Origin: Bacteroidota bacterium | GTDB lineage: Bacteria; Bacteroidota; Bacteroidia; B-17B0; Aurantibacillaceae | Length of the DNA: 64,000 bases | NCBI GenBank assembly: GCA_030684395.1 | Contig: JAUXTT010000011.1 | Span: 310,001 to 374,000 of the forward strand | Reading direction: 5' to 3' | In this document: piece after piece, positions 11,598-58,941 of the stretch | How positions within the stretch are numbered: the first letter of the stretch is position 1 | Layout: each line of letters begins with the position of its first letter | The notes under the pieces: model-generated | Told to the model about the DNA's origin: nothing | What the model saw: only the letters and a program-made list of their open reading frames with translations | The model's database searches: none | Made by a program: the position numbers and the translations under genes

Positions 11598-12080
11598 CCG
11601 CTGATTCACGCTGATTTCACAGATTTGTGATAGAGGTTATGTGTTAGCTGTATAAAATTCTTCCGTTCTCTTCTATTTCTTTTAATTTTAAATAGTCGTC
11701 CCTCAAATACTACACAAACATTATTAATAAAGGAGATTCAGCCAAAATTATATTGTTTCGTATTGCAAGGAATCTTTGACCTGCTTTAAAATTCTTGCAG
11801 ATATTTACCGTACACAAAAATATTTGGCTACTCTGTAGCCTTAAAACTTTGATTGTTTGTAATATTATTGTTTTGCTCCTCTGGAGCAAATTCTTACAAA
11901 GCACGGCTCCAGCGGAGCCAAATATTAGTAATTTAATGTTAATAGATGAATGCTGGCCACAGCGTGGCCAAACAATTATGCGGGAAAAGATAGGTCTTTT
12001 ATATCGATAATTTAATGTGGATACTTTTTGAGGGACGACTAAATATAAAATAAGTGTAATCTGCTTGAATCTGCGACTAA
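11598..12080. repeat. Family A palindromic repeat, split by an inserted element
   Basis: Left arm 11598-11628 contains CGCTGATTCACGCTGATTTC and then ACAGATTTGTG. Right arm 12052-12080 contains GTAATCTGCTTGAATCTGCG. The arms are inverted relative to each other, as in the other family A copies (for example 31464-31570, 44244-44351, 57950-58082). Those copies are about 105-130 bp, whereas here the arms are about 420 bp apart because the four-hairpin element (11693-12041) sits between them. Confidence 0.6.
11693..12041. mobile_element. Non-coding element with 15-bp inverted ends and four hairpins
   Basis: TAGTCGTCCCTCAAA (11693-11707) is repeated perfectly inverted at 12027-12041, bounding 349 bp. 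Inside are four tight palindromes: GGCTAC-TCT-GTAGCC (11826-11840), TTTGCTCC-TCT-GGAGCAAA (11872-11890), GGCTCC-AGC-GGAGCC (11905-11919) and TGGCCAC-AGC-GTGGCCA (11954-11970). All have 3-base loops, TCT twice and AGC twice. No convincing coding region or transposase is present, so it may be a MITE-like, non-autonomous element or a structured RNA. A clear target-site duplication was not found. Confidence 0.6.
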
Positions 12081-13467: not shown

Positions 13468-13495
13468 TGATACGAAAATACGGATTTTATGCAAT

Positions 13496-13535
13496 GGAAC
13501 ACGGATGACACAGATTTAACTGATTGAAACGGATT
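13496..13535. repeat. Family A repeat, single arm
   Basis: GGAACACGGATGACACAGATTTAACTGATTGAAACGGAT is built of the same 9-10 base units (CGGATGACACAGATT) as the other family A copies but has no second inverted arm. It fills the gap between the HutD-like gene and the lipid kinase gene. Confidence 0.5.
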
Positions 13536-31458: not shown

Positions 31459-31463
31459 GTATA

Positions 31464-31570
31464 GAACGCAGATGACGCAGATGATTATGATTATCACTGA
31501 TCTCTTCTTATTTAAATAAAGCAATCAAAAAATCATAAAAAATCTGCCTGATCCGCGTCCTCTGCGTTCC
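31464..31570. repeat. Family A palindromic repeat
   Basis: Left arm GAACGCAGATGACGCAGATG (31464-31483) and inverted right arm CTGCCTGATCCGCGTCCTCT then GCGTTCC (31544-31570). Each arm holds tandem 9-base units of CGCAGATGA type. It fills the gap between convergent genes and could form a long imperfect hairpin. Confidence 0.75.
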
Positions 31571-31574
31571 ATTT

Positions 31575-32201
31575 TTAATTCACTTTCACTTTAAACCTCA
31601 CCTCCACATCAGTTTCCCCGGGAGGAAACGTACCGTCTTTTGCACCTGGTTGATGACGTAAAGTGATGGTGAATGGATGCTGATTTCCTGCAGTATTGGA
31701 ATTAGTCCTTATTTTAAATTGCTGCCCTATTCCCCTGTTATTTGCGTCCAGATCTAAGTAGGTGATTTCTATTCCTGACCCCGAAAGAATCGTTGAATAA
31801 GGATTTCCAACAGGATTTGTTTGTTCGAAAAAGAACATATGGTCCTGGCCTTCTTCTACTACTTCGTTCGAGATGGTATCAACAGGATTTTTTGTTTCGT
31901 CCAATAAAAATAATTCAGCCAGGTAAGTAGTAGAGTCGTTTAAGGTAATCAATGAATCTACGGCTAAAGGCAAGTAAGTTCCAATATTCCCTCCATCACC
32001 ATCTGCATCTTTAAATATAAATGGCGAACCGATAATATAATTTCCACTGACTGAATCTTTAATATAGATCTTCATTGTAGTAATGATCTCACCGCTATTG
32101 GTTGGGCTAAGTGGATTGTTTGCAGAAGGCTCTTCATTCTTTTTCTTTAAGCACGAAGAAACAGCCAGTGCGAATAAAAATAATATAATTATACTTTTCA
32201 T
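31575..32201 (-). CDS. Small lipoprotein of a TonB-receptor operon
   Basis: A 208-residue lipoprotein (lipobox AVSSC, Cys near residue 17). The mature part has KDADGDGGNIGTYLPLAVDSLITLNDSTTYLAEL and HPFTITLRHQPGAKDG, a beta-rich domain often encoded beside TonB-dependent receptors in this phylum. It follows the receptor gene 69 bases downstream, with a 20-bp palindrome between. It probably binds the receptor's substrate or helps assemble it; evidence is context only. Confidence 0.75.
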   Translation of the reverse strand: MKSIIILFLFALAVSSCLKKKNEEPSANNPLSPTNSGEIITTMKIYIKDSVSGNYIIGSPFIFKDADGDGGNIGTYLPLAVDSLITLNDSTTYLAELFLLDETKNPVDTISNEVVEEGQDHMFFFEQTNPVGNPYSTILSGSGIEITYLDLDANNRGIGQQFKIRTNSNTAGNQHPFTITLRHQPGAKDGTFPPGETDVEVRFKVKVN

Positions 32202-43420: not shown

Positions 43421-43489
43421 AAAGCAAATATAAAGTTTGTCTGAAAGCTTTGCTATATCAAGTTTTCAACAGAAAGTTGATAAATATAA

Positions 43490-43530
43490 TGGCACGCTAA
43501 TGACGCTGATTAGTATGATTTTAGCTGATT
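43490..43530. repeat. Family A repeat, single arm
   Basis: TGGCACGCTAATGACGCTGA and TTAGTATGATTTTAGCTGATT show the CGCTGATT units of family A without a second arm. It lies between tex and the DinB-like gene. Confidence 0.5.
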
Positions 43531-57140: not shown

Positions 57141-57953
57141 ATGCAATTAAATCTCACCAAACCTATCGCGTTCATTGATCTTGAAACTACCGGAATAAAT
57201 GTTGCTTCCGATCGAATAGTAGAAATCTCCATTTTAAAAATTCATCCGGGCGGAAAAGAAGAAGTAAAAACCTTGCGTGTAAATCCGGAAATGCCAATTC
57301 CAGCTGAATCTTCAGCTATACATCACATTTTTGATGGAGATGTGAAAGATTGCCAAACCTTTAAACAATTAGCCACTCAACTTTCTTCTTTTATTGACGG
57401 TTGTGATCTGGCAGGGTACAACTCCAATAAATTTGATATTCCGTTATTGGCCGAAGAATTTTTACGTGCGGATGTTGATTTTGATCTGCGAAACAGAAGA
57501 CTGGTGGATGTACAAAACATCTTCCACATCATGGAGCAACGTACTTTAAGTGCTGCTTACAAATTTTATTGCAACAAAGAAATTGAAAACGCTCACAGTG
57601 CAGAAGCGGATATAAAAGCCACTTATGAAGTATTTTTAGCACAACTCGAAAAATACAAAGAAGTTGAAATAGCGGATGAAAAAGGAAACAAATACATTCC
57701 GGTTACCAACAATATAGAGGCACTCAGTAAACTAACTGCAAGAGGAAGAAATGCTGACTTAGCAGGTAGAATACAATTCAATGTAAAAGGTGAAGAGGTT
57801 TTTGCTTTCGGAAAACACAAGGATAAATCAGTGGAAGAAATTTTCGAAAAAGAACCTTCGTATTATAAGTGGATGATGGATAATGAATTTCCGCTTTATA
57901 CAAAAAAGATCATTACTCAGATCAGGTTACGAATGAAGACAAGTAAGGGATAG
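57141..57953 (+). CDS. DEDDh 3'-5' exonuclease with DUF3820-like tail
   Basis: A 270-residue DNA polymerase III epsilon-like exonuclease. Exo I is IAFIDLETTGINVASDRIVEIS near residues 9-30, Exo II has LAGYNSNKFDIPLL near residue 91 and Exo III has NAHSAEADIKATYEV near residue 150, with the DEDDh His. The C-terminal FGKHKDKSVEEIFEKEPSYYKWMM near residue 220 is a DUF3820-like extension. Its TAG stop is the first part of the family A repeat. Confidence 0.92.
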   Translation: MQLNLTKPIAFIDLETTGINVASDRIVEISILKIHPGGKEEVKTLRVNPEMPIPAESSAIHHIFDGDVKDCQTFKQLATQLSSFIDGCDLAGYNSNKFDIPLLAEEFLRADVDFDLRNRRLVDVQNIFHIMEQRTLSAAYKFYCNKEIENAHSAEADIKATYEVFLAQLEKYKEVEIADEKGNKYIPVTNNIEALSKLTARGRNADLAGRIQFNVKGEEVFAFGKHKDKSVEEIFEKEPSYYKWMMDNEFPLYTKKIITQIRLRMKTSKG

Positions 57954-58082
57954 AACGCAGATGACACTGATTTGTTAAGATTAACGCTGATTCTTTAGAT
58001 TTATAAGAATCATGCAATTTATCTGCTACGAAGAAAATTAGAATTCATAATAAATCTGCTTAATCTGTGTCGTCTGCGTTCC
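57950..58082. repeat. Family A palindromic repeat supplying two stop codons
   Basis: Left arm ATAGAACGCAGATGACACTG and ATT (57950-57972); right arm CTTAATCTGTGTCGTCTGCG and TTCC (58059-58082). The left edge, ATAGAACGCAGATGAC, matches the copy at 31462. The TAG in it stops the exonuclease gene. Read on the minus strand the right arm encodes the last residues of the PlsC gene and its TAA stop. Confidence 0.8.
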
Positions 58083-58941
58083 ATCTTTTCACAAATTCTT
58101 CGAAACTCAACTTGGTTCCTTTTCCTAATTCATACACATAAGCCTTCACTAACTGCGCCCAGTCTCTGTGGCTGTGCCTTTTATCAAACACTCCATAGCT
58201 AAAAGGTTTCCCGAATTTTACATGAATGGTTTTGTTCCTTTGTTTTACCATTTCATCAGCAAGAAAAAACATTTCAATATTTCCTTTTATTCTTAAACGC
58301 TTGCGCCATAATGCAATGTTGTAAAACAATTTTGAATTTCTTCCGTCAATATAAACAGGCACTATCATCCGTTCGTGTTTAATTGCTTGAGTGATGAAAC
58401 TCTTCTTCCACTCCAAATCTTTTATTTCTCCCTTTTGTTTTCTAGAAACCATCCCTGCAGGAAAAACCAATACTGCTTGTTCCGAAGAATAAATTGCATC
58501 AATAACCTTTAATGCATCCCCAGCGGTTTTTCCCACTTTATTTACACCCACAAATAGACTTCTAAAGTTCACCAGTTTCAATAAAATATCATTCACCAAA
58601 AACCGTACATCCTTCCTTATATTACTCACAGCATTTATTAACGCCAAACCATCCAATCCACCAAGCGGGTGATTGCTGGCAATGATGAGTCCTCCCTCCT
58701 TTGGTATATTTTCCAATCCTTCCCAACTAATCTTGGCTCCCAAATACTTTATGGCCGAATCATTAAAATCATGTTCGTAGTCATTTTTGTAAAGCTCAAT
58801 TCCGGCATTAACAAAATCCTGGTGTAACTTTTTCTTTATCCAATTGAGAACAAATTGGGGCAAAAACTTATATAAACGAGGATTTTTCTCCCGAATAACA
58901 CCCTCAACATCAATAAATTTCTTCGTTTTTGACTCTTCCAT
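58060..58941 (-). CDS. PlsC-type lysophospholipid acyltransferase family protein
   Basis: A 293-residue acyltransferase that transfers an acyl chain to a phospholipid precursor. The catalytic motif is SNHPLGGLDGLAL near residue 90, where His and Asp are separated by five residues rather than the usual four. A later motif FPAGMVSRKQKGEIKDLEWKKSFI near residues 160-180 resembles the family's FPEGTRS block. IPKEGGLIIASNHP shows the usual approach. The last residues, WNADDTD, are encoded by the family A repeat. Acceptor unknown. Confidence 0.83.
   Translation of the reverse strand: MEESKTKKFIDVEGVIREKNPRLYKFLPQFVLNWIKKKLHQDFVNAGIELYKNDYEHDFNDSAIKYLGAKISWEGLENIPKEGGLIIASNHPLGGLDGLALINAVSNIRKDVRFLVNDILLKLVNFRSLFVGVNKVGKTAGDALKVIDAIYSSEQAVLVFPAGMVSRKQKGEIKDLEWKKSFITQAIKHERMIVPVYIDGRNSKLFYNIALWRKRLRIKGNIEMFFLADEMVKQRNKTIHVKFGKPFSYGVFDKRHSHRDWAQLVKAYVYELGKGTKLSFEEFVKRWNADDTD

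Follow-up and report, generated by a model that had tools for sequence, protein, structure and literature searches.

BrickBuilt and MITE464/PgRS of P. gingivalis are among the described elements that come closest to the present one. According to the accessible part of PMC4596501, both are MITEs of the Bacteroidota that have IS5-family inverted repeats and carry repeats of another kind inside, and both are present in around 10-20 copies, BrickBuilt being without a transposase remnant. An IS982-derived MITE of Cardinium, as presented in the available part of PMC9769881, is likewise a Bacteroidota MITE that spread within one lineage. The REP and REPIN sequences of the RAYT/TnpA-REP system are short-loop hairpins that are dispersed, paired, and located beside HuH/Y1 genes (PMC6006769, PMC3733652, available parts). 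In the same parts of this survey literature (PMC6006769 / PMC3733652), subclass 1.2 of the Y1 proteins has the motif Y---Q--HH, a median length of 148 aa, and a distribution in Bacteroidetes or Cyanobacteria, and it is listed there without REP or terminal hairpins.

The window, that is, the whole stretch of 64,000 nucleotides that was analysed, contains an element of 349 bp at 11693..12041 (no strand assigned), which is an IS5-type MITE with REP-like hairpins in its interior. The element was compared with its own genome, with the genomes of relatives, and with known families of transposases and RNAs, and its hairpins appear to be REP-like DNA hairpins of the kind associated with genes for Y1 transposases.

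Structure, copies, and target sites of the element

The element is short and non-coding, and it is bounded by a perfect 15-bp terminal inverted repeat, whose left arm TAGTCGTCCCTCAAA (11693..11707, plus strand) pairs perfectly with the right arm (12027..12041, minus strand). Both arms were located exactly where a preceding sequence-only reading of this DNA had placed them. The hexamer TAAATA is found on both sides of the MITE, at 11689..11694 and 12040..12045 (junction comparison, no strand assigned). Since the outer TA of the inverted repeat is also part of the junction TAAATA, the core spans 11695-12039 when the terminal TA is assigned to the target, and 11693-12041 when it is included in the element. 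The filled sites fit a TA that belongs to the element (2-bp target repeat) as well as one that belongs to the target (6 bp), and cannot decide between the two.

Copies were searched with a 551-base query around the MITE against the own assembly, and with a pattern search for the end sequence. The query gave 20 matches in the own genome including the MITE itself, with 17 further places at E <= 1.6e-54, and the last two of the 20 matches were short and restricted to the hairpins. Seven copies, including this one, are complete, measuring 347-368 bp with a pairwise identity of 90-97%. Among the incomplete ones, a copy on C26 is truncated within that contig and ten are pieces cut by contig ends; a 109-bp deletion copy, in which only the two end regions are left, was found through the end-pattern search. 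The 15-base end occurred at 23 places of the own genome with at most one mismatch, compared with one place for the reversed control. The assembly consists of 44 contigs, many of which are broken at MITE copies, and because ten pieces stop at contig ends, these counts describe the assembly and may differ from the true copy number. The copies lie at unrelated loci, and the six additional complete ones contradict the absence of a second copy, which the earlier reading had named as a ground for giving up its proposal. The element was found in none of the 99 other genomes searched, four of which matched it over short stretches that fall mainly in the region of the hairpins. In the complete copy that diverges most (1816-2183 of locus L036, own contig C37), a G+C-rich palindrome of 20 nt, CCCGCC...GGCGGG, is inserted where hairpin 3 has its loop.

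Target repeats were counted at 25 elements with the core taken as GTCG...CGAC, the elements from other genomes being among the matches listed. L144 and L162 (poor second end), L161 (contig end), and L097 and L151 (left flank unusable) were left out of this count, and L116 (Phycisphaerae) was retained and gave no match. Exact repeats of 6 or 7 bp, mostly of the form TANNTA, flanked 15 of the 25 elements among the matches listed (14 with 6 bp, and one own copy with 7 bp), against exact 6-bp agreement in 70/600 control pairings of left flanks with the right flanks of other elements. By group, they were found at 5/8 own copies, 9/13 same-end elements elsewhere, and 1/4 elements of transposase length, and were missing at the other 10/25, including three of the four transposase-length ones (among the matches listed). 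The orthologous spacer is 552 bp long here, whereas in two genomes of the same genus it measures 78 bp (G001) and 46 bp (G002), too short for the MITE. An exact empty site was not seen in the two same-genus relatives, whose flanking genes are only ~72-80% identical.

The element had further been described as nested between the arms of a second repeat, named family A. Arm-like sequence was indeed present at ~11600-11627 and 12056-12079, as judged by eye, and these flanks resemble, also by eye, the repeats at 13494, 31461-31576, 43489, and 57950-58088. The MITE appears to sit between two degenerate arms of one GCAGATGACGCAGAT-type copy. As a separate observation, repeats of the GCAGATGACGCAGAT type form a family in the window (13494-13515, 31461-31576, 43489-43510, and 57950-58088, in addition to the MITE flanks).

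The ends and an IS5-family transposase

Scanning bacterial and archaeal genome contigs with the exact 15-base end yielded at least 112 stretches, many from Ferruginibacter, further Chitinophagaceae, and other Bacteroidota, with single scattered matches in other phyla. Among the matches listed, 22 had a properly oriented second end within 3.5 kb, a count that admits as many as three mismatches at one of the two ends and was made without a control, and some of these paired-end elements were ~1.45 kb long. Three of them, L151, L097, and L112, have a single long open reading frame inside their ends, and the encoded proteins, with DUF772 and DDE_Tnp_1 domains (Pfam), scored 431, 430, and 449 bits against the NCBIfam family NF033578 (IS5 family transposase), which has a cut-off of 275. 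The MITE therefore has its ends in common with an autonomous IS5-family element, and L094 and L166 contain broken relatives.

The own assembly gave no match to the L151 protein, and one partial match of 26 bits to the NF033578 family (cut-off 275). In the same genus, G002 has five short transposase fragments, three of them with stops. Full-length IS5-type transposase genes are present in two relatives from the family, G024 and G036, and the ends on either side of the G036 gene differ from that of the MITE at 2-3 positions. Since the own assembly is without a matching transposase, present mobility is doubtful; the helper may have been lost here or may be hidden at contig breaks. Its absence lowers present mobility and leaves MITE membership untouched, because a MITE may outlive its helper. 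The many copies, the repeated target, the relatives without room for the element, and the ends common to transposase-encoding elements bear out the earlier proposal of a non-autonomous mobile element.

Hairpins with a 3-nt loop above the cut-off given below were absent from 16 same-end elements of other genomes among the matches listed. Because other MITEs with these ends have no such hairpins, those of the present element look like cargo. Further same-end MITE families, each with its own interior, were seen at L063:6480-6888 and L076:4442-4676 (Ferruginibacter MAG), L092, and L129, and a long hairpin TCCACTTTTGT...ACAAAAGTGGA is common to L063 and L076.

Overall, the locus is very probably explained by transposition of the MITE by an IS5-family transposase, with the hairpin array as passive cargo. 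An IS5-family DDE transposase of the NCBIfam NF033578 group, acting in trans, would have recognised the GTCGTCCCTCAAA ends and moved the element into AT-rich TANNTA sites, each of which would then have been repeated on both sides. We infer the kind of transposase from the shared ends, and its gene would since have been lost or be concealed at contig breaks. Most likely, the hairpin array lay in, or entered, an element ancestral to the MITE, with which it later multiplied in the genome as a passenger.

Hairpin doublets and Y1 transposase genes

The four hairpins were re-measured, and their 3-base loops (TCT, TCT, AGC, and AGC) and spacings (48, 31, and 50) agreed with the earlier description. 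Hairpin 1 (11826..11840, minus strand) reads GGCTAC-AGA-GTAGCC followed by the tail AAATATT, and hairpin 2 (11872..11890, minus strand) reads TTTGCTCC-AGA-GGAGCAAA followed by ACAATAAT, their centres being 48 nt apart. Hairpin 3 (11905..11919, plus strand) reads GGCTCC-AGC-GGAGCC with the tail AAATATTA, and hairpin 4 (11954..11970, plus strand) reads TGGCCAC-AGC-GTGGCCA with the tail AACAATTA, at a centre distance of 50 nt. When oriented, all four share the order stem, AGA or AGC, stem, and A-rich tail (e.g., AAATATT or AACAATTA). The pair read on the minus strand (hairpins 1 and 2, pitch 48 nt) and the pair read on the plus strand (hairpins 3 and 4, pitch 50 nt) thus make up two doublets that diverge from each other.

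With a cut-off that required a 3-nt loop and a stem of 6 bp or longer with four or more G/C, 11 hairpins were found in 464 kb of the own genome (the 64-kb window plus 400 kb from four contigs), and four of the 11 are those of the MITE, within 145 bp. In three Markov controls, 10, 8, and 9 hairpins were counted per 464 kb; the overall number is therefore unremarkable, and what stands out is that four of them fall within 145 bp. The idea that the hairpins are a common genome-wide repeat was rejected, since the 400 kb sampled from the own genome contained no hairpin with an AGA or AGC loop above the cut-off. The exact pattern GGCTMC-AGM-GKAGCCAAA occurred 23 times in the own genome, with 19 occurrences within MITE copies and four elsewhere (C20, C26, C31, and C37). 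It was also found in 4/60 other genomes of the family, and its reversed control gave no match. Among 11 loci of this hairpin type outside MITEs, six have another hairpin of like orientation 42-52 nt away.

A relative, G026, has a HuH/Y1 transposase gene (L236) whose start codon is directly preceded by two GGCTCC-AGA-GGAGCC hairpins, 49 nt apart, and the genome carries hairpins of the GGCTAC/GGCTCC type at two further places, C28 and C94, so that they occur both at a Y1 gene and elsewhere in the same genome, as REP-like sequences do. In G041 (L212), the contig opens inside what is apparently the same hairpin, 35 nt before the Y1 start codon. At L058 (G026, C94), a GGCTAC-AGA hairpin was seen shortly 5′ of an IS3-like transposase frame, the frame being named by eye.

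The Y1 genes of the family were sampled at 53 loci, including the four of the own genome, out of 103 Y1 matches in 61 genomes. The motif Y[IVL]xxQxxHH was found in 44 ORFs, 129-168 aa long, which were assigned to subclass 1.2 by this motif alone, without a tree. In 29 of these 44 genes, a hairpin rich in G+C and with a loop of 3-4 nt ended within 50 nt of the start, in contrast to the hairpin-free listing of the subclass in the survey, whereas this was the case for 4/268 control ORFs of the own genome and for a mean of 0.2/44 after shuffling. Against ORFs of the same loci, the proportions were 29/42 and 6/41 (P=5e-7), two genes with a start within 100 nt of the locus start having been set aside. 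In other families of the class (48 loci among the matches listed), the near hairpin was present at 15/39 genes and 6/51 controls (P=0.005). The near hairpin was missing in 13/42 genes of the family, and its excess is less pronounced in the wider class. Upstream hairpin spacings fell at 46-54 nt in 19/29 cases in the family and at 50-53 nt in 6/15 cases in the wider class (among the matches listed). The stems vary widely between genes, with pairing, loop size, and often position kept; because the hairpins were picked as hairpins, this is no independent test of covariation. At three loci of relatives (L210, L213, and L231), subclass 1.2 genes have upstream hairpins as well as additional ones that lie 17-86 nt past the stop codon, the latter with the loop sequence inverted.

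The four Y1 matches of the own genome were not seen beside this hairpin type. As a source of the MITE hairpins they were rejected, all four having other hairpins or none nearby. Because its subclass 1.2 genes on C11 and C12 adjoin different hairpins, a cognate gene for the MITE hairpins is not established in the own genome. A Y1 gene of another type (Y...NP motif; L180, own C40:151600) lies amid four long GTTGGTG-NNNN-CACCAAC hairpins in a REPtron-like arrangement.

We tentatively suggest that the doublets with a pitch of ~50 nt could be the cognate DNA of subclass 1.2 TnpA-Y1 proteins, cut and joined as single strands, in which case the MITE would be a chimera of two transposition systems; the reading is a possible one, still short of being probable. 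If true, an IS5-type transposase would have spread arrays of Y1 recognition sites, with four exact sites outside the MITE and 19 more in its copies.

The same neighbourhood could also reflect a gene-specific leader or attenuator that controls the transposase gene and is not a DNA substrate, the MITE having acquired such a leader. The many near hairpins that lie 8-17 nt 5′ of the start codon are what a leader would show, but the doublets with their ~50-nt pitch, the inverted form on the downstream side at L210, L213, and L231, and hairpins at L313, L316, and L293, loci in which no Y1 gene was seen, argue against it and make it unlikely. Less likely still is that the element is a structured non-coding RNA, or regulates its flanking genes as an RNA, with hairpins under selection. 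Relative to shuffled sequence, both strands fold far more stably (z -7.46 and -7.06), yet this excess is expected from the inverted ends plus the hairpins. The copies differ in fewer cells at stem positions (8/685) than at the ends (17/390) or in the rest (97/3372), a figure that is weak because the copies are few, related, and non-independent. In the Rfam scan, on which this candidate was rejected, nothing came near threshold, the best scores being 20.9 and 19 bits where the gathering scores are 100 and 65.3. The 16 same-end elements elsewhere are free of these hairpins (among the matches listed), one own copy has the 20-nt insert together with mismatches in hairpin 3, and another is without nearly all of the interior. 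The covarying structured RNA offered by the sequence-only reading is therefore not supported, and its own caveat, hairpins not conserved in homologues, came out divided, with the hairpins absent in elements of other species and kept in most own-genome copies. Finally, a decayed coding gene, or a small one carried by the MITE, is very unlikely despite a 109-codon stop-free stretch on the minus strand that was matched in 16/5000 simulations and stays open for more than 100 codons in 5/7 complete copies, since the stretch is reduced to at most 71 codons in two copies, the changes by codon position (23/28/18) and the synonymous share (12/52 versus 22% expected by chance) are as without selection, and neither a Pfam family at E <= 1 nor a meaningful match to the L151 transposase was found; this refuting case, also named by the earlier reading, thus finds no support.

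Comparison with described systems

The IS5-family insertion sequences of the NF033578 group (L151, L097, and L112) share the terminal inverted repeats and TA-rich junctions of the MITE, but they carry a transposase gene, are ~1.45 kb long, and have little in common with it beyond the ends. The literature searched contained, by title or opening lines, no matching description of a MITE with REP, TANNTA targets, or hairpin repeats in this part of the Bacteroidota, and did not print the end sequence. For subclass 1.2 together with TnpA, IS200, or REP, a single survey was found, and no report of the hairpin link appeared in the literature searched, most subscription journals lying outside it.

Compared with the present element, the Cardinium MITE derives from another IS family and has intact parent copies in the same genome (PMC9769881, available part). 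BrickBuilt and MITE464/PgRS have other end sequences and a like-ended IS in the same genome, whereas no parent is present in the assembly here, and their cargo consists of tandem direct repeats of 23 or 41 nt instead of hairpin doublets (PMC4596501, accessible part). Unlike the REP and REPIN sequences in the available parts of PMC6006769 and PMC3733652, the MITE hairpins occur as same-direction doublets with a ~50-nt pitch, and the genes concerned fit subclass 1.2, which is listed without REPs. The GTAG/GTGG foot within 0-2 nt 5′, part of the canonical definition in PMC6006769 as far as available, is absent from all four hairpins. The copies are few, with the 23 exact GGCTMC-AGM matches, the one stem pattern counted genome-wide, falling short of the high copy number of canonical REPs.

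The MITE itself is ordinary, and it is the cargo that matters: pairs of hairpins ~50 nt apart, one of them near a start codon, beside a HuH class that is listed without REPs. The question of which DNA the subclass 1.2 proteins act on becomes directly testable, and one family of mobile elements is seen to spread what may be the recognition sites of another. IS5-ended MITEs with other repeats are already known; of greater interest is the link between the hairpins and subclass 1.2.
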